From Hyella patelloides LEGE 07179 (GTDB taxonomy: Bacteria; Cyanobacteriota; Cyanobacteriia; Cyanobacteriales; Xenococcaceae), in assembly GCF_900659865.1 (NCBI RefSeq), contig NZ_LR213767.1:1-64000 (forward strand): DNA of 64,000 bases. The letters run 5' to 3'. This document shows, in pieces, positions 130 to 16,597 of this stretch. The notes beneath the pieces were generated by a model, which was given only the letters and a program-made list of their open reading frames with translations, was not told the origin of the DNA and made no database searches. The first letter of the stretch is position 1; the number at the start of each line of letters is the position of its first letter. A program made the translations under genes and the position numbers.

Positions 130-1890
130 TTAGTGGTCTTTTTCTCCTTGACTAGACAAGTAACCAAGGGCAAAACAGAGCAAAGCATTTACGCCGAGGA
201 AGCTACGGGCGATCGCACCTGAGCCTAATCCCCATACTGTAGGATCGATTACGGCATTAATGCCTAAGCAAGCAGCTACGCCCAGAGAAGAGCCAATAGC
301 AAACCATTTCCAGCTTTTATTACCTGATAGTAAAGCAACCAGTAAAAAGGGAATTAACACACTGGCAAACAGAGGATTAAAGCTAGTACTGCCTACTACT
401 ACGTTACCCAATTCAGGAATCGAACTACCCATTAAACGCAAGGGCCATTGAGGTAAATCGAATATATACAACCCTTGGAGGAAAAATAAGCCAGCACTAC
501 CAAAAATCAGCCCGCTATGGAGACTTAAAGTAAAAGTTAGGTAGTTACGAATAAACCAAGCTAAGAGGTAAGAACCAATTACCATACCCAGTTTGGGTAA
601 TATTGCCACTGCACCACCATCAATCCAGAAACCAGGATTCAGATAACCGCTATTTCTTAACCAACGGAAAAAGTCATTAAAGGTAATTTTGCCTTTGAGT
701 GCTAAACCAACTGCTGCACCAGCATCTAAATGACCAGCACCGAAGTAGTTTTTAGTATCTTCTGGTACTTTACGCGCCGACTGTTTGAGAACATCAAGCA
801 CTTCTGAAGGTTCAGCAACACCACTAGCTTTGACTAAAGCTGCAACTCCTGCTACGTGGGGGGCTGCCATACTCGTACCTTGGAAACCAACAAAGACAGA
901 TTCTCCAGTACTGGGATTGATAGTGTTTTGTAAAATTTTTCCTGTTTCACCACCACCAGGGGCGGAAATATCAACACCTGCACCGTAATTGGAATAGTTG
1001 GCTTTTGCTCCTGTACTATCGGTAGCAGAAACACTAATTACTTTGGGATAACGAGCGGGATAAGAAGCGGAGTTTTGATTGGCGTTACCAGCAGCAGCGA
1101 TAATAACCACCTTTTTACGATCTGCATAATCGATCGCTTCTTGCATGATTTGACTCGCACCACCTCCACCGAGGCTCATATTAATAACATCTGCACCATT
1201 GTCGGCTGCAAATTTAATTGCTTCGGCGATATCTGCTACTGTTCCGCCACCACCTTTACTAAGTACTTTGAGGGGCATTATATTCGCTTTGTAGGCAATA
1301 CCCGCTACTCCATAACCATTATTGGTAGATTGAGCAACTGTTCCTGCTACATGAGTACCATGACCATTATCGTCATCTGCGTTAACTTTATCGTTAACAA
1401 AGTCGTATCCTTTAACAAATTTAGTTAATTTAAGATCGGGTACTCTGCTAACTCCCGTGTCAATTACTGCTACGGTTATACCGTCTCCTGCGGTTTCTTT
1501 CCAAGCAGATTCAACATTGATGCTCCGAAAATTCCATTGCTTGCTGTAATCAGGATCGTTGGGTGCGTCTAAAGCCTGATACTGATAGTTGGGTTCGATG
1601 TATTCTACCTGTTTTGCCAAAGACGATTTTCTTAATTGTCTGAGCATTTTGCGATCGCCATTGACAACATAGACGTTATCGCTGACAGAATACATACTGT
1701 TTAATTCAGGTTTATCGGCATACTTCTGGTAAATTTCTTCGATATCCTCACTGATTTGAGTAGTGGGAATATTTTCTTTAAAATCAATAATTAAAGAATC
1801 AAACTCTCCTTGATTCGCCAAACCAGAAAAACTCATGAGGGCAAATCCGATCCCCAACAAAAATAGTAAGAAAAATACAACTTTCTTCAT
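130..1890 (-). CDS. S8 family subtilisin-like serine protease with C-terminal membrane domain
   Basis: Exported endopeptidase of the subtilase family. Residues 1-25 look like a signal peptide or signal anchor, and about 28-106 form a propeptide-like segment. The catalytic domain (about 110-400) shows Asp144 (AVIDTGV), His177 (NGHGTHVAGT), oxyanion Asn269 (AAAGNAN) and Ser340 (GTSMAAPHVAG), so the triad is complete. Residues 420-586 are not protease: they contain about five hydrophobic segments and so appear to be a polytopic membrane tail. That tail is unusual, because most bacterial subtilases are secreted or carry beta-rich C-terminal domains. The gene is monocistronic on the minus strand and diverges from holA. 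Substrate unknown. Confidence 0.9.
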   Translation of the reverse strand: MKKVVFFLLFLLGIGFALMSFSGLANQGEFDSLIIDFKENIPTTQISEDIEEIYQKYADKPELNSMYSVSDNVYVVNGDRKMLRQLRKSSLAKQVEYIEPNYQYQALDAPNDPDYSKQWNFRSINVESAWKETAGDGITVAVIDTGVSRVPDLKLTKFVKGYDFVNDKVNADDDNGHGTHVAGTVAQSTNNGYGVAGIAYKANIMPLKVLSKGGGGTVADIAEAIKFAADNGADVINMSLGGGGASQIMQEAIDYADRKKVVIIAAAGNANQNSASYPARYPKVISVSATDSTGAKANYSNYGAGVDISAPGGGETGKILQNTINPSTGESVFVGFQGTSMAAPHVAGVAALVKASGVAEPSEVLDVLKQSARKVPEDTKNYFGAGHLDAGAAVGLALKGKITFNDFFRWLRNSGYLNPGFWIDGGAVAILPKLGMVIGSYLLAWFIRNYLTFTLSLHSGLIFGSAGLFFLQGLYIFDLPQWPLRLMGSSIPELGNVVVGSTSFNPLFASVLIPFLLVALLSGNKSWKWFAIGSSLGVAACLGINAVIDPTVWGLGSGAIARSFLGVNALLCFALGYLSSQGEKDH

Positions 1891-2079
1891 GGTAACTTAT
1901 CCATACTCCTTAATCCTTAACTTTCATAGTGGCAAAAAATTGTTAGCCTCTACAACTGATGTTTCAATTTTTGATTTTTTTGTTGACTTGCTTATTTCAA
2001 AGATAAAGCAATTAGCCAGATCTTGGCGGTGATTTAAAAACTCATTACAGTTATAAATTAGTTGGTAAATAATTTAATT

Positions 2080-5441: not shown

Positions 5442-5935
5442 TGTATTTCAAAAAACTATCAAAGCTTTTTGCGAAAGTATTATTTAAACTATCGTTTATC
5501 TTTATCTAATAATTTAAAATAAAAAAGTGACAAACTAGGAACAAATAAGGTAAATGCAGCACAATTTACCGCTCATTTTAAGCTTAATTTCTTAGTAAAA
5601 TATCAGGTGATATAAAATACAAAAATTGATGCTGCATATTGAATTTTTATTTCTTCGATCTTCCGCTTCTTCCGCTTTATCTGGAGAGGCTGCCATTTGA
5701 GTGTGAGGGATGCTGAGGAAACCTCAAATGTTTACATTGTCAAGAGATGGGGATACGCCCCGTCTCCTTCTGCTTTTTATCTGTAGCAACCTTTCAAGCA
5801 TTTCATATTACAATGTAATTAAATCATCATTTTTTGGTTCTTAATCCGCTGTAATCCATCTATTTTAATTGTCAGAGCTATTTTTTAGATAGATTTTAGA
5901 GATGGGTTTTAAGAGTCAGAATTGTTTTGTGCTGG
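5442..5935. other. Intergenic region with structured segment
   Basis: 494 bp without a supported gene. At 5694-5766 there are nested inverted repeats: CATTTGAG (5694-5701) with CTCAAATG (5723-5730), an inner TGAGG-AAA-CCTCA hairpin, and GAGATGGGG (5744-5752) with CCCCGTCTC (5758-5766, one G-T wobble). The last is followed by a T-rich run near 5774. It may be a small RNA with a terminator or a degenerate palindromic repeat. The rest shows no clear signal. Confidence 0.45.
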
Positions 5936-6226
5936 CTAAATTTCTAAAAAATTGATATTGGGAATTAAAGGATCTTCTACTAAGCCAATTCCTTGATATC
6001 CCCAACGTTGTAAAAGAGATTTTAACTGAACAGGAGAGAGAGATTCTACCTTTAAGCGATTGCTCATTTCTTGACCGTGGGCATTAATATAAGATAAGGC
6101 TTCATGATCTGCTTTAAAAAGTAGTAAATAACTGGCTTCTGGACTATCTTCATTTTGAGAAATACGAGCCACTAAATATTTCCCGTCTTTTGGAGATCGA
6201 ATAACGTAGTTAATAGAAGACAACAT
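5936..6226 (-). CDS. Conserved hypothetical protein, 96 aa
   Basis: Small soluble protein of unknown function. It begins MLSSINYVIRSPKDGKYLVA and reads like a compact alpha/beta domain, with no signal peptide, membrane segment or metal motif. It lies 99 bp downstream of the ATP-grasp ligase gene on the same strand and may be the last gene of that transcript. Codon use and clean start support a real gene. No function can be assigned from sequence alone. Confidence 0.65.
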   Translation of the reverse strand: MLSSINYVIRSPKDGKYLVARISQNEDSPEASYLLLFKADHEALSYINAHGQEMSNRLKVESLSPVQLKSLLQRWGYQGIGLVEDPLIPNINFLEI

Positions 6227-6325
6227 GAGTAATTAGTCCCAATTAAAGTTAACTGTAAAATTCACCGAGTCAGACATCACAGGTAGGGTGTGGTGTATAA
6301 AAGTTCATCAATTAAATTTAGTGAC

Positions 6326-7894
6326 TTACGACCAATTAATCGGTAATTGAGATAGTGTTTCTTCTCTGATTAATTTGGTTTCTCGATCTAAAACCTGTTC
6401 TACATTGTTATAAATGGCTTGAGCTTCTTCGAGGGAATTGCCAATACTGGTTAAACCTAATTTACCAAATTCTGATAAAGCACCCATAAGATGAAATACT
6501 GTACCCGTGCGAGTACTACTATCAAAATGCAATCTTTCTTGAGCGATAATATCCATCAAGTCATTGGGTAACAAGCCACGGTAATCTTCTTTTTGTAGAT
6601 TGTCAGAAGAGATATAGTATTTAGGCTGATTGGCTTGACTCAAAAATAAACCTGTAGCATCGTCATAGTTACCGTTGGTAAGTAATTTGAGGGTCATAAA
6701 GGGATGGGTTGTACCCCCTTTTCGTAAGTTAATTTCGATCGCCTGAATTTCCCATTGTTGGCTATCGGGATTTTTTACCGTCATGAAGTCTACGCCATAG
6801 CGTTCAATTGCACCTTTAGCTGCTAAAGCTCTACCTACTTTAAGTCCTAATTCTTGGATTCGTAAACGATAAGCAGACTCCGCAGGGAAATAACAACCGA
6901 GATAGATTTGATTGTCTGCACCCCCTAAAATTTGATCGTGGGTAGAAAGGATCGATACTTCTCCTGATGGATCGATATAACCTTGAACGCTTGGCGATCG
7001 CTTAATTACGCCTTCGATAAATGCTTCGACAATTGCACCTAATTCGGGAATACGACGAGAAAAGTTATCCCAAGTTTCTTCTGCTGATTGAAAGCTTAGG
7101 TTTTCTAGCTGTTGCTTAAGAGCTTTAATTGTGCTTTGACGATCGCTGTGAGCAGGCGCAAACTGTTTAATAGGAGTGAGGTCTAAGACTGCGTTACCCT
7201 CTCCTGAAAAGCCTTCATTGAGTTTAATGACGATTCGCTTAAGATGGGGTTGTCTCTCCCAGAGATTAGCTAATTCTGATAATAGATCGGGGATATTAGT
7301 AACGGTGTAGCTACCGTCAGGATGGGGAACTTGACATTCGGCAAAAATTTCTCGACTACCACTTTTAGAACCCCAGTAATTTAATTCAGGAGAAGCTGCG
7401 AGTAAAGGAATATTTAGTTTGACAGATAATTCTTGCTCAAGGGGAGTTGCATTGAAACAAACCATATAAGAGCGATCGCTACGTAAAGCACGACGAATTT
7501 TTTGTACTAAACGAGGACGTTCTAAAATTTTTTCAGTTAAAGGTCTTAAAGAAGCGTCATAAATACTAATTAAAAGTAAACGCTCCCTTGCATGAGAAAA
7601 AGGAATTCCTGATAGTAGTTGTAAGTAATAATCAACAATTATGGGGCATAAAGGTAAAGCGGTAACATAAATAACTCTGGTATGGGGATTTCTCAGACGA
7701 ATTAAAGAAAATAAGAGCCTTTCTTCGTAATGTAAAAAACCTGGGATTTTTGTTCCCAATTGGGGATCGATACTAAAAGAAGGGATAACCAAGATATCAC
7801 AGTCGTCGCGATCGAAGATATCAACTTGTTGCCAGCGATCGCGTAATTGATTTTGTAATTGATTGAATTGAATTTGACTCTTATTTTCTTCCAT
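6326..7894 (-). CDS. PGM1-related peptide ligase-like ATP-grasp protein
   Basis: 522-aa cytoplasmic protein resembling the ATP-grasp peptide ligase PGM1-related family, named after the pheganomycin ligase. Visible ATP-grasp features are the lysine strand KRIVIKLNEGFSGEGNAVLD (about 220-240), the VEAFIEG lid and hinge segment (about 285), and the metal-binding IQAIEINLRKGGTTHPF (about 385-400), with acidic Glu and Asn in the expected ExN order. Such enzymes join a carboxylate to an amine through an acyl-phosphate; the substrate here is unknown. Its start overlaps the 3' end of the upstream dihaem cytochrome gene by 14 bp, so the two are probably translated from one message. Confidence 0.75.
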   Translation of the reverse strand: MEENKSQIQFNQLQNQLRDRWQQVDIFDRDDCDILVIPSFSIDPQLGTKIPGFLHYEERLLFSLIRLRNPHTRVIYVTALPLCPIIVDYYLQLLSGIPFSHARERLLLISIYDASLRPLTEKILERPRLVQKIRRALRSDRSYMVCFNATPLEQELSVKLNIPLLAASPELNYWGSKSGSREIFAECQVPHPDGSYTVTNIPDLLSELANLWERQPHLKRIVIKLNEGFSGEGNAVLDLTPIKQFAPAHSDRQSTIKALKQQLENLSFQSAEETWDNFSRRIPELGAIVEAFIEGVIKRSPSVQGYIDPSGEVSILSTHDQILGGADNQIYLGCYFPAESAYRLRIQELGLKVGRALAAKGAIERYGVDFMTVKNPDSQQWEIQAIEINLRKGGTTHPFMTLKLLTNGNYDDATGLFLSQANQPKYYISSDNLQKEDYRGLLPNDLMDIIAQERLHFDSSTRTGTVFHLMGALSEFGKLGLTSIGNSLEEAQAIYNNVEQVLDRETKLIREETLSQLPINWS

Positions 7895-8417: not shown

Positions 8418-9209
8418 TTAAAGGATATCACGCCAAGAGTGACCCCTTTTAATATCTCTAATAGTCCATTTACTTACATCATATAGCTCAGCTATTTCTC
8501 TAATACTAAATTTTCTCTCTCGCAATAAAACTTTAATTTCCTTGACTTGTTCGGCGGTTAATTTAGTCCGATAGCGACGAATTTTTGCTGTGGAATTAGC
8601 AATGTAACCCGTAACTTTACTCCAAGTTTTGCCATACTTGATCTTTTGTATTGTTTTAGTACTAACATCAAAACAGAGAGCAATTTGGCGGGCGGATAAT
8701 CGTTGTTCTTGTAATAATTCCCAAATTTCTAAAACTTGTGCTTCGGTTAATTTAGAATTAGTTTGCGAACCGTGAGAATTAAATAAACCATTGTCAATAG
8801 CGTGTTGATGGTTTTCTGCGTTGGTAATCCATTCTAAATTGTCAGCGCAATTATTGTGTTTATGACCATCCATATGATTTAAGCAATAAGAATCAAGCTT
8901 ACTACCTATTTCCCCTTTTGGCGGGGGTAAAAAAGCCTTTGCTACTAGATGATGTACCCCTTTCATTTGTACTTGGGAATTTCGACAGAGATAAACTTGA
9001 AGATAGTTATTGCGATCGCTGTGAAGTTTTAATAGCTTACCAGGAATTATTTGTAACTCGCCATTTTGATTGTTAATGAAACGATCTAAAGAGCGAATTC
9101 GACCTCGATCTGATACTTGATAAACACCCTCATATCCAGAAATCGCTACCCATTTTTCTTCATTAGCAGCTATCTCTTGGTCTTCATTACGATAATTCAT
9201 GGCACACAA
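8418..9209 (-). CDS. NUMOD4/HNH homing-type endonuclease
   Basis: 263-aa free-standing endonuclease. Residues 19-42 are a NUMOD4 motif (KWVAISGYEGVYQVSDRGRIRSL). Residues 87-127 form an HNH_3 nuclease: H87-H88, then N111-H112 in LNHMDGHKHNN, and N124-L-E-W. The C-terminus has two helix-turn-helix NUMOD/IENR-like repeats at about 152-193 and 215-258 (LTEAQVLEI... and LTAEQVKEI...), which are DNA-binding. Such genes normally live in phage genomes or introns as selfish DNA. No intron or split host gene is visible here. It sits directly upstream of the cytochrome gene on the same strand. Confidence 0.85.
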   Translation of the reverse strand: MCAMNYRNEDQEIAANEEKWVAISGYEGVYQVSDRGRIRSLDRFINNQNGELQIIPGKLLKLHSDRNNYLQVYLCRNSQVQMKGVHHLVAKAFLPPPKGEIGSKLDSYCLNHMDGHKHNNCADNLEWITNAENHQHAIDNGLFNSHGSQTNSKLTEAQVLEIWELLQEQRLSARQIALCFDVSTKTIQKIKYGKTWSKVTGYIANSTAKIRRYRTKLTAEQVKEIKVLLRERKFSIREIAELYDVSKWTIRDIKRGHSWRDIL

Positions 9210-12650: not shown

Positions 12651-13853
12651 TTAACGAGCATAGTCTGGAAAATCGCTAAAATTATCTTTTAAGATGTTTT
12701 TTCCTAAAATAAGACCTGTATCTGTACCGTAAAAAATTTCTCTCCGAAATAATCCTCCATCAATGCGGTTAGAAAGAACAATTACTAAAGTTTTATTGGG
12801 ATCGTCATACTTCAGAAAAATGGCATTTTGCGAATCAGTTGCACCGTCATGGCTAATCATTTTTCCGTATTCAGATGACTTTTCAATTGCCCATCCATAA
12901 CCATAATAGCTTTCATCCTCATTATTTTCTTTGATGTAGGGCGTAAATAGCTTTGCAGTAGATTTTTCAGCAAGAATCAGGTTATTTTCTAGGGCAGTAT
13001 TCCATAAATAAAGATCGCCTATTGTTGTCAATACACCACCAAAGCCAAGCAATCCCCAAGATGGACCTGGTCTTGTTGCAGCAGAGCCAAAGTCTTTTTT
13101 CTTGTTATACCCGTGAGCAACCGTTATTTCTGACCATTGAGGATCGTTATAAAAGCCTGTATGAATCATCCCGACAGGATTGAACAAATGCTCTTTCAAA
13201 TAAGCTTGAAAAGGTTGTCCAGATACAATTTCGATAATTGCTGCGAGTAATCCATAACCAGTATCAGAATATAAGTATTTTGTTCCTGGTGGAAATTTTA
13301 ATTTGGCATCAAAAGCCAATGCGACAGCTTCTTGACGACTGGTTTCTGTAAAATCATTTTGATAGACATAACTTGGTAAACTAGATGAATGAGTTAATAG
13401 TTGATGCAGAGTAATATCAGCTTTATCTGGTGGAACATCATCAAAAAAATTGGCCAAAGTATCCGTAACTTGTAATTTTCCCTGCTCCTCTAAATGTAGT
13501 ATGGCTGTTGCTGTGAATTGTTTTGAAAGCGAACCCGTATCGAAAACGGTTGCAGGTGTGATGGGGATATTTTTGTTTTGATCTGCTAAACCATACCCAT
13601 CCTTAAAAATTACTTCGCCATTTTGAGCTACAAGCACTGCACCAGAAAATCCAGCTTCTTCAAGACGATCCAGATAAGTTTTAATCTGATATTCAAGGTT
13701 GTTATGATTCAATCGTTCATTGATAGGTTTTTTATTATTAAAGTCAATTTGTTCTGAAGAAACAGTTTTTGCTGCCAAATAAGAACCAAATAAAGAAATG
13801 AGTATTCCCAAACAAAAAAAGGCAACTAGTTGAAAACGGCTACGCTTTTTCAA
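12651..13853 (-). CDS. Serine hydrolase (class C beta-lactamase-like)
   Basis: Penicillin-binding-protein-like serine hydrolase, 400 aa. An N-terminal hydrophobic helix (about 8-30) works as a signal peptide or membrane anchor. The nucleophile motif is S108-L-S-K111 in FDTGSLSKQFTATA, and the second catalytic motif is YSDTGYG (Tyr-x-Asp in place of Tyr-x-Asn). A third conserved region lies near ISHDGATDSQ, at the HxG position. Family members include esterases, DD-peptidases and peptidases, so the substrate is open. The gene lies 120 bp downstream of the sigma-ankyrin gene on the same strand and could share its transcript. Confidence 0.87.
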   Translation of the reverse strand: MKKRSRFQLVAFFCLGILISLFGSYLAAKTVSSEQIDFNNKKPINERLNHNNLEYQIKTYLDRLEEAGFSGAVLVAQNGEVIFKDGYGLADQNKNIPITPATVFDTGSLSKQFTATAILHLEEQGKLQVTDTLANFFDDVPPDKADITLHQLLTHSSSLPSYVYQNDFTETSRQEAVALAFDAKLKFPPGTKYLYSDTGYGLLAAIIEIVSGQPFQAYLKEHLFNPVGMIHTGFYNDPQWSEITVAHGYNKKKDFGSAATRPGPSWGLLGFGGVLTTIGDLYLWNTALENNLILAEKSTAKLFTPYIKENNEDESYYGYGWAIEKSSEYGKMISHDGATDSQNAIFLKYDDPNKTLVIVLSNRIDGGLFRREIFYGTDTGLILGKNILKDNFSDFPDYAR

Positions 13854-13973
13854 AACTTATCTCCTGACACCAGTGTTCAAAAATTTTGTTAGATTCCCGA
13901 CTGAATGCCAAGAATAGTAATCTGTAATTGTTGTCAATCGCTTTTTTCTGCTTCGGATTAAAAAAATAGCCAA

Positions 13974-15779
13974 TTACAATTTTTCTGTTTCAAGTTGCTG
14001 CAATAACTCAACTGCTGCTGGTTGTCCGAATTCTTTTGCCCAATCAAGAGGTGTATAGTTATGGATGTTATCCTTAGCATTTAGATCGGCTTGATACTTT
14101 ACTAATAAACGAATTAAATCTAAATTTCCTTTAGCTGCTGCACCCTGAAGAGTGGTTAATTCAAGTTCCCCAATACTTTTAGCGTTAACATCCGCTCCAG
14201 CTTCGAGCAGAATTTTTGCGATTTCAATTTGTTCGGTTTTAATAGCTGCGTGCAATGGTGTCAAATTAGCAACAAAATCACCTAATTTGTCTTTGATTCT
14301 AAGATTAATATCTGCGCCTCTTTCTAGTAACCAAGATGCTGCTGTTGTTAAACCTTTTTGAATTGTGTAATGGAGTAACAAAGGTTTTTGAGAAATGATA
14401 GTAGGCTGTGTATCCAATAAAGCTTGAGCTTGTTCCCATTGTTCGGCAATAATTAGAGTAGATAGATCGATTTGAGCATTATTTGCCATTAATAAATCAA
14501 TAATCTGCTGATGCTCGGCTTTCGTAGCCATACATAAAGGAGTTACGCCAAAACGGGTTAGAGCATTAACATCAGCACCTTTTTCTAACAGAAATTCTAC
14601 TATTTCAGTCCTATTATTAGCTATAGCAAAATGGAGAGGTTGAAACTCATCCATCGCAAAACCCAATCTTTGGGTAAGTACTTCTGGATTTGATTCAATT
14701 AGAGAACTAACTAAATCTTGGTTCTTAAGAGAGATCGCACTAAAGATATCTAATTGCGCTCCTTTACTAATCAAATATTCTCTAATTTCTTGATGACAAT
14801 CGCCCATAACACAATTAGGAGGACATATTTGAAAAATGGTTGTCCAACCTAAAGGCGTAAGATTATACCAGTTATCTTTGGCATTAATATTGGCATCGTT
14901 TTCAACTAAAAGTTTAGTAACTTCTAAATGACCTCCTGTAGCAGCCCAGTGCAATGGGGTAGTCTTACTATAGTTGCCTTCTAAAGCATTAACATTAGCA
15001 CCAGCATCTAATAGTAACTTGACAATATCTAGATATCCTCGATGAGCAGCATAATGCAACGGAGTACTATGAATACAATCATCTTTGATGTTAGCTAAAC
15101 TAATATCTTGCTTAAGCAGGATTTGTATTGTTTTTTCATTCCCGCTACAAGCAGCTTCAATTATTTGAGTGATTCTGCTAGCAAAAGTATCATCTTGAGA
15201 AGGACGTTGATTGTCTAAATAATCTTCTACCATGTTCATAACCTCTGGTTTAAGTCGGTTTCTAGCACTGTGTAAACGGTTTTTAATTGTTGAGATCGGA
15301 ATTTCTAAAAAAGCACTAATTTCTTTCTGAGAGCGATCGCTAAGATAAAACAAAGTAATCACTTCTCTCTCAGTTTTGGGTAATAATTCAATTGCTCGAC
15401 CAATTTTGGCTTGTAATTCCCTGACTTCAGCAATACTTAGGGGATTGGGTTGAGACGACATTAATTCTTCTGTCTGAGTTAAAGAGACGAAAGAAGGGCG
15501 TTTGACTCTTATCGTGCGATCGCAATGTTTGAAGACAATTTTTTTGAACCAGCTAGCAAATGCACCATGATTACGCAGTCGAGACAGATTAAGATAAGCT
15601 TCGATAAAAGCCTCTTGTGCTGCTTCTTCTGCTTCGGGGAAATTTCTTAAGATCGAGTAAGCGTAACCCACTGCTAAATCTTGAAATTGTTTAACAATTC
15701 GATTGTAGGCAGAGCGATCGCCATTCTGAGCTTTTTCTACTAGAGTAATTAGTGTTTCTAGGCTCAACCTTGGGGTCAT
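13974..15779 (-). CDS. ECF sigma factor fused to ankyrin repeats
   Basis: 601-aa fusion. Residues 10-95 form sigma-70 region 2 (DRSAYNRIVKQFQDLAVGYA, EEAAQEAFIEAYLNL) and 120-180 region 4 (LLPKTEREVITLFYLSDRSQKEI, a helix-turn-helix ending STIKNRLHSARNRL). Together they are a complete extracytoplasmic-function sigma factor. From about 200 to 598 there are roughly ten ankyrin repeats (TPLHYAAHRGYLDIVKLLLD, TPLHAAIKTEQIEIAKILLE and others). ECF factors normally stop after region 4, near 180 aa. An ankyrin tail would give built-in protein binding and could replace a separate anti-sigma factor (inference). Its ATG overlaps the stop of a small upstream ORF as ATGA, so translation is probably coupled. 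Confidence 0.9.
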   Translation of the reverse strand: MTPRLSLETLITLVEKAQNGDRSAYNRIVKQFQDLAVGYAYSILRNFPEAEEAAQEAFIEAYLNLSRLRNHGAFASWFKKIVFKHCDRTIRVKRPSFVSLTQTEELMSSQPNPLSIAEVRELQAKIGRAIELLPKTEREVITLFYLSDRSQKEISAFLEIPISTIKNRLHSARNRLKPEVMNMVEDYLDNQRPSQDDTFASRITQIIEAACSGNEKTIQILLKQDISLANIKDDCIHSTPLHYAAHRGYLDIVKLLLDAGANVNALEGNYSKTTPLHWAATGGHLEVTKLLVENDANINAKDNWYNLTPLGWTTIFQICPPNCVMGDCHQEIREYLISKGAQLDIFSAISLKNQDLVSSLIESNPEVLTQRLGFAMDEFQPLHFAIANNRTEIVEFLLEKGADVNALTRFGVTPLCMATKAEHQQIIDLLMANNAQIDLSTLIIAEQWEQAQALLDTQPTIISQKPLLLHYTIQKGLTTAASWLLERGADINLRIKDKLGDFVANLTPLHAAIKTEQIEIAKILLEAGADVNAKSIGELELTTLQGAAAKGNLDLIRLLVKYQADLNAKDNIHNYTPLDWAKEFGQPAAVELLQQLETEKL

Positions 15780-15946
15780 CTTGAACTAAAATTGTCCTCT
15801 GTATTAATAAGACCCAATTTGTCTAAAAAAGGTTTGTTGAATTCAAAATTTAATGCTGAAAACTTGCCATTCTTGGGATAAATAGCAATCATCATGCCAC
15901 GAGAGCTACGAAATTTACAAATTTCCCAGTTTTCGGAATCTGACAT
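15776..15946 (-). CDS. Small protein coupled to sigma-ankyrin gene
   Basis: 56 aa from the ATG at 15946; a TTG at 15979 would give 67 aa. It is not a recognised family. The sequence is a short soluble domain containing SDSENWEICKFRSSRGMMIA and ending LINTEDNFSSR. The stop codon overlaps the sigma start (ATGA), a strong sign of translational coupling, and this is the main reason to believe in the gene. It could be a regulator or partner of the sigma-ankyrin protein; nothing in the sequence shows this. Confidence 0.55.
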   Translation of the reverse strand: MSDSENWEICKFRSSRGMMIAIYPKNGKFSALNFEFNKPFLDKLGLINTEDNFSSR

Positions 15947-15979
15947 AAGAGAGCTATCTTCATCTCGACGCAATGGCAA

Positions 15980-16597
15980 TTACAGACTAAGTTAAAAAAC
16001 TTTAGTCTTAAGTAAATATACTTAATTTATCAACTTAAGTAAGAGAAGCTTTATGCCTTTCGTTGAGGAGCAATTCGAGACGTTTTTCAGATGTTTATTC
16101 TTCTGGGAATTTTTATGATTATTTCAGTTCTTGAAAAAAACTAAACAATAGTTTTTCTTCTAAACCTCATCAGTAAAATAATCGAGGCGATCGCGAATGC
16201 GCCCTCTCTGCTGTTCGCGCAGTGTCAGGCTCCGCCCAATCGCCTCTTACTTTTCTTGTCAGCTTCGATGAAACCGCAGCCTTAACAACAAAAAAAATTA
16301 CCAGGAATTGGTTCTTACAACTCCATATCAATCAATATCGCTAGTCGCTGCTCGAATCTCTGAACAAGGAAAATTAGTCTCTATCATAAAAAAGTAAAAA
16401 TCTAGAGAAAATATTGCATAAAACAGTCAAATAAACCTATGATTATAAATAACACTAACTTCATCAATCATTCCTAGTAAGTATTTACGGAGTGAAGGTT
16501 TACTCTGTAATTGCCCCATAAATTTTTTTCAAGGCAAAATCAAGAAGCGGTTTTTGGTGATTTGGGTAAATGTGCTGAAACTGATGTCAGAAACTAA
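15980..16597. other. Intergenic region with HIP1-containing inverted repeat
   Basis: About 620 bp upstream of the small coupled ORF. GAGGCGAT (16184-16191) and ATCGCCTC (16239-16246) form a perfect 8-bp inverted repeat enclosing a G+C-rich, HIP1-bearing loop and followed by a T-rich stretch. It looks like a dispersed palindromic repeat or terminator. No reliable gene is seen. The promoter of the sigma-ankyrin transcript should lie at the left end. Confidence 0.45.

Follow-up and report, generated by a model that had tools for sequence, protein, structure and literature searches.

A candidate self-activating ECF sigma factor with an ankyrin tail in Hyella patelloides LEGE 07179, and the recurrence of its head with unrelated tails

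Introduction

The locus studied here raises the question of how an ECF sigma factor can be controlled when no anti-sigma gene lies beside it and its own C-terminus carries a long ankyrin domain. The gene is located in the window, that is, the whole stretch of 64,000 nucleotides of H. patelloides contig NZ_LR213767.1 that was analyzed. ECF factors with extensions and without an anti-sigma factor are a known regulatory class; at least 26 ECF groups carry N- or C-terminal extensions, and ECF42, which has a TPR tail, has been proposed to be activated through protein interaction (PMC8999054). In this study, we asked whether the sigma-ankyrin fusion is one conserved protein, what surrounds it, which promoter it may use, and how its head is distributed.

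Results

The sigma-ankyrin gene occupies one uninterrupted frame of 601 codons on the minus strand (13974-15779). The features of the locus, with the evidence for each, are as follows.

13974-15779, minus strand: sigma-ankyrin protein, 601 aa (open frame, Pfam, orthologues, dN/dS)
15504-15761, minus strand: sigma region 2, aa 7-92 (Pfam Sigma70_r2; helices in the model)
15210-15443, minus strand: sigma region 4, aa 113-190, behind a disordered linker, aa 93-112 (Pfam Sigma70_r4_2; model)
15183-15206, minus strand: conserved head-tail linker RPSQDDTF, aa 192-199 (cross-phylum conservation; low-confidence hinge in the model)
13977-15188, minus strand: ankyrin solenoid of 12 helix pairs, aa 198-601 (Pfam Ank families; model)
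15808-15835, minus strand: promoter-like element AAACCT-N13-TGGGTCTTA shortly ahead of the sigma ATG, predicted to be an autoregulatory ECF promoter (orthologue conservation, distant members, motif tests)
15776-15946, minus strand: 56-aa ORF, most likely not a gene (no homologue, frame broken, no family match)
12651-13853, minus strand: PF00144 serine hydrolase, a neighbour and not a conserved part (Pfam; remnants beside both close orthologues)

A Pfam search of the 601-aa protein matched Sigma70_r2 at aa 29-82 (E 1e-8), Sigma70_r4_2 at aa 125-176 (E 3.6e-13), and six Ank_2 stretches (E 2.8e-61). The AlphaFold model, which was built from 19 relatives and has a mean pLDDT of 84, places sigma2, a disordered linker (93-113), sigma4, a short four-residue hinge (194-197), and the ankyrin solenoid (198-600) in this order, with the solenoid running as one continuous structure at a pLDDT mostly above 90. 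Twelve helix pairs were counted in it; the initial annotation, which had proposed about ten ankyrin repeats over 400 residues, was thus accurate for the length of the tail but low in the number of repeats. The pTM was 0.66, and the model, which came with no pairwise error, gives no usable head-tail contact. DARPins and ankyrins were the closest solved folds to the ankyrin part in the fold comparison, and no transmembrane or targeting feature was noted in the protein.

Both Pfam and the model show a head consisting of sigma2 and sigma4 only, with a linker of about 20 aa between them, which is the layout of group IV (ECF) sigma factors. The NCBIfam sigma70-ECF model scored 78 bits on the 601-aa protein against a cut-off of 42.9, and the best NCBIfam match of the head was SigW, at 107 bits and under its cut-off of 209.

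Full-length orthologues were found in a Xenococcaceae MAG (74% identity) and in two Scytonema genomes (about 52% overall identity). The dN/dS between the window and the 74% orthologue was about 0.12 for the sigma part and 0.23 in both ankyrin halves, indicating that purifying selection acts on the sigma head as well as on the ankyrin tail. Since full-length orthologues exist and both parts are under dN/dS constraint, the gene encodes one protein, and the possibility that two separate proteins had been merged was ruled out. The pairing of sigma regions 2 and 4 with an ankyrin tail, as initially annotated, is borne out by Pfam, the model, and the full-length orthologues.

In a Pleurocapsa MAG, a deletion has cost the ankyrin tail its final third and the following gene most of its length. 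The deletion in Pleurocapsa MO_192.B19 (L010/L012) fuses the mid-ankyrin tail to the end of the serine hydrolase region and leaves a 441-aa sigma protein with fewer repeats. At another locus, L016, two more genes that appear ankyrin-like by eye, at 1124-2014 (plus strand) and 5569-7242 (minus strand), flank the sigma-ankyrin gene and are possible partners or duplicates.

The window neighbours of the gene encode a sugar kinase, ABC permeases, an AI-2E transporter, response regulators, and CheW. No anti-sigma gene was found among them, in agreement with the initial annotation, and an ankyrin extension fused to the head where no anti-sigma gene is present is the arrangement of ECF factors with a regulatory C-terminal extension. 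The serine hydrolase that had been reported to follow the sigma gene does exist, but beside the 74% orthologue only its residues 1-87 and 379-400 are left, and beside the Pleurocapsa orthologue only residues 374-400; near the Scytonema orthologue, no such hydrolase was seen in the main ORFs. Given its deletion in both close orthologues, the hydrolase cannot count as a fixed partner and was rejected as a candidate, and no other gene was found conserved next to the sigma-ankyrin gene. Elsewhere in the window, a NUMOD4/HNH homing-endonuclease-like gene with helix-turn-helix parts (8418-9209, minus strand) is a candidate free-standing mobile element.

In the window, the 56-aa ORF and the sigma start overlap at an ATGA. 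The ORF had been described as a small ORF coupled to the sigma factor, and the overlap would suit a small regulator, either an anti-sigma factor or a leader peptide, translationally coupled to it. The overlap is real, but 60 related genomes contained zero homologues of the ORF, neither Pfam nor NCBIfam matched it, and indels of one and two bases interrupt its frame in both close orthologues. The DNA ahead of the sigma ATG nevertheless stays conserved in these orthologues; the end of the ORF overlies a conserved promoter-like element (15808-15835), which accounts for the conservation. The frame breaks and the absence from the 60 relatives speak against a role as anti-sigma factor or leader peptide to the point that we find such a small regulator scarcely credible, and the ORF is in all likelihood no true gene.

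The promoter-like element of the window, AAACCTTTTTTAGACAAATTGGGTCTTA (15808-15835), has the form AACCT-N13-TGGGNCTTA. The regions upstream of the heads share AACC(T)-N13/14-TGGGNCTTA, located about 30-120 nt ahead of the head. In an unbiased dyad test of all 4-mer pairs and spacings in 44 non-redundant upstream regions, AACC-N14-TGGG ranked top with 10 regions, compared with a maximum of 6 and a mode of 4 in 100 shuffled sets. A held-out set of 36 upstream regions, which were gathered later and not used in defining the motif, contained AACC-N14-TGG in 7 regions (shuffles: mean 0.31, maximum 2 in 300), and neighbouring spacings gave only 0-1 regions. Four of the five perfect AACCTT-N12-TGGGNCTT sites in 12 other genomes lie just upstream of sigma-head genes. 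The motif is absent from some family members.

In the 8 Mb host genome, the element of the sigma gene itself was the only site with 0-1 mismatches, motif counts were not above those of the reversed-pattern control (16 versus 17), and none of the eight 2-mismatch sites inspected stood at a promoter-like distance before a gene. This regulon search with the motif therefore gave no convincing target in the host besides the sigma gene, so that either the regulon consists of that gene alone or the other targets differ more from the motif. The -10 side of the element is without the CGT of many ECF promoters, and a scan of 13800-16200 for sigma-70 promoters and terminators returned no more than chance. 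Positive autoregulation and AAC-type -35 boxes are typical of ECF factors (PMC8103513); since the class commonly transcribes itself and uses such boxes, an autoregulatory ECF promoter is the simplest reading of the element and is what we predict.

The head was found in none of 385 other sampled cyanobacterial genomes at E<=1e-45; among near relatives it was present in 2 of 60 genomes, and additionally in the two Scytonema. Heads with 41-50% identity occur in Poribacteria, Latescibacterota, Chloroflexota, Armatimonadota, Gemmatimonadota, and Aminicenantes, and an Oscillospiraceae head shares 43% identity. The head family was present in 15 of 16 Latescibacterota genomes, nearly always with ankyrin tails, and the head in 21 of 151 Armatimonadota genomes; sigma-ankyrin proteins recur in Poribacteria and Armatimonadota. 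The design had been called uncommon, which holds for cyanobacteria, where it is very rare, but not for Latescibacterota, where it is common. Two head trees, one of which also took in more distant heads, grouped the window head with its two close relatives at full support, and in one of them it joined Scytonema. The patchy occurrence suggests that the cyanobacterial copies were acquired horizontally. Among viral contigs, 50 pattern matches included no relative; no plasmid record covered at least 80% of the query, the plasmid matches listed hit the ankyrin part, and the one that was checked (H4) is an annotated hypothetical protein.

The promoter, the sigma head, and the linker (RPSxDD) form a unit in at least eight lineages. 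In a survey of 58 sampled head members with tails assigned by Pfam, the ankyrin tail was the commonest by far (28 members), and the others included RCC1 repeats, APH kinase, SAICAR synthetase, adenylosuccinate lyase, a class II tRNA-synthetase core, a sigma-54-type AAA+ domain, a type II secretion F domain, DUF1835, and nucleotidyltransferase; several members had a tail with no Pfam match. The linker consensus RPSxDDxF is retained before most tails, with P193 and S194 conserved across phyla ahead of different ones. Open frames of at least 366 aa were present at 55 of the 56 places listed, indicating that the heads almost never stand alone. On the head tree, the ankyrin label needed 9 changes across 40 rows; the labels 'C39-like', 'GNAT-like', and 'TPR-like' were assigned by eye. 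Fusions to ribosomal S2, BFN, HEAT, and membrane tails have more distant heads without the motif and were not counted as the same family.

Tail exchange is seen most directly within single genomes. Two Oscillospiraceae paralogues share 82% DNA identity over 643 bp of promoter region and head, the similarity stops at the linker, and the tails (APH and RCC1) are unrelated; a more distant pair in a Hebobacteria genome behaves likewise, with 75% over 717 bp. Since head and promoter recur with very different tails, we regard them as a reusable, putatively self-activating module and not as a one-off oddity.

Several further fusions were observed during the survey. Three Poribacteria genomes encode SAICAR synthetase (purC) fused C-terminally to an ECF sigma domain, at L199 (G071:C6, 51097-52494), L195 (G064:C58, 210159-211556), and L105 (G495:C24, 10009-11307); two different sigma-head families are involved, joined near the same point of the enzyme (near RGKVRDLYDLG), and no purC match other than the fused copy was found in G071. 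The recurrence in three genomes argues against misassembly in this case, though the heads differ, and misassembly may lie behind the other single enzyme fusions. A head is fused to adenylosuccinate lyase at L112 (G494:C129), and three Armatimonadota loci (L229, L230, and L233) have a common tail resembling the class II tRNA-synthetase core, for which the Pfam match was obtained in 1 of the 58 sampled members. At L088 (G066:C135, 32500-36800), a more distant ECF head is a candidate in-frame fusion to ribosomal protein S2. Poribacteria contain tens of ECF heads, many with long tails, and one contig (G064 C89, 50427-75496) has five sigma-fusion genes inside 25 kb, four of them (L189-L192) with a membrane-type tail.

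Discussion

The closest precedent for the protein is ECF42, which likewise has an ECF head, no anti-sigma factor, and C-terminal protein-binding repeats. The tail of ECF42, however, is a TPR domain of about 200 aa, compared with 400 aa of ankyrin here, which places our protein outside that group; moreover, no YCII-domain partner gene was seen at this locus, and the same head carries many unrelated tails. ECF57 also combines an ECF head with a variable, repeat-rich extension, in some cases WD40-like, that is thought to interact with proteins (PMC8999054); a conserved cysteine pair links its sigma2 and sigma4. ECF41 and ECF56 (SnoaL-like) and ECF238 (CorE, cysteine-rich) are one-component factors in which an extension replaces the anti-sigma factor, but the presumed ligands of those extensions are small molecules or metals, whereas ankyrin is a protein-binding fold. 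The model for MzaA of the MZA anti-phage system (NCBIfam NF041931, named as a sigma-70 family factor) matches the ankyrin part of the protein, yet at 78.7 bits it is far below the cut-off of 800; the PADLOC MzaA match (E 6.7e-5) spans 50 residues, and no MZA neighbours were seen.

In the open-access literature, short of the 2021 ECF re-classification, neither a sigma-ankyrin fusion nor the head-tail exchange nor the promoter was found described. The sigma-ankyrin design thus adds to the known class of ECF factors with regulatory extensions.

We propose, with somewhat more confidence than doubt, that the protein is a one-component ECF sigma factor that activates its own gene and is gated by its ankyrin tail. 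The sigma2-sigma4 head would recruit RNA polymerase to promoters of the AACCT-N13-TGGGNCTTA type, and would bind the element at 15808-15835; as the promoter of the sigma gene itself is a clear example of this type, the head would switch on its own gene. The ankyrin solenoid, acting via the conserved short linker, would take the place of the missing anti-sigma factor, and its groove may bind or release a partner, which we infer to be a protein, so that the head becomes available or unavailable; the direction of this gating is likewise inferred. The positive loop would then amplify the decision and sharpen the response. Gating by the tail is the most natural reading because the TPR-tailed ECF42 is analogous (PMC8999054). 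In its favour we counted the purifying selection, the dyad and held-out motif tests, and the long tail on nearly every head; against it we counted the lack of a conserved partner gene and of a second host target, the tail deletion in Pleurocapsa, the -10 side without CGT, and the model without head-tail contact.

The relation of head to tail could also be the reverse, with the promoter and head forming a portable, self-transcribing cassette that amplifies an ankyrin effector as its output. The single good promoter match in the host genome would fit such a cassette, as would the enzyme tails or pieces of enzymes (SAICAR synthetase, adenylosuccinate lyase, tRNA-synthetase core, APH, and nucleotidyltransferase) and the Oscillospiraceae paralogues, whose closely similar promoter-head DNA leads into unrelated tails. 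Weak target promoters would, however, escape a strict pattern, ankyrin by itself catalyses nothing, the conserved linker suggests communication between head and tail, and ankyrin is by far the most frequent tail surveyed; we therefore judge the output role unlikely, while giving it real weight. A transcriptional role in which the tail only anchors or places the sigma factor and senses nothing appears improbable: ankyrin repeats are generic binding scaffolds, and the closest folds are generic as well, but the protein carries no noted transmembrane or targeting feature, and other head families in the same Poribacteria use membrane segments instead. That the gene is a decaying, horizontally acquired one with no present function is very improbable, since its frames are intact and dN/dS is 0.12-0.23 between the window and the 74% relative, although its occurrence in cyanobacteria is very patchy, its tail is shortened in one MAG, and the neighbouring hydrolase is deleted in two.

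Beyond this locus, and as a possibility that we lean slightly against, the cassette of promoter, head, and linker may be portable and may have acquired, repeatedly and across at least eight lineages, some dozen unrelated modules, each fusion transcribing mainly itself, so that the family would be a self-activating module for expression or sensing that spreads by tail exchange, and not a set of classical regulon regulators.

Within the largest class of alternative sigma factors, the ECF factors that lack an anti-sigma partner are the ones understood least. With one head and a recognisable promoter combined with many tails, the role of an extension as sensor or output becomes directly testable, and the natural head-tail fusions offer a large set for synthetic switches. 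If the self-only regulon is true, the sigma factor would be put to an unusual use, amplifying from within the partner to which it is fused.
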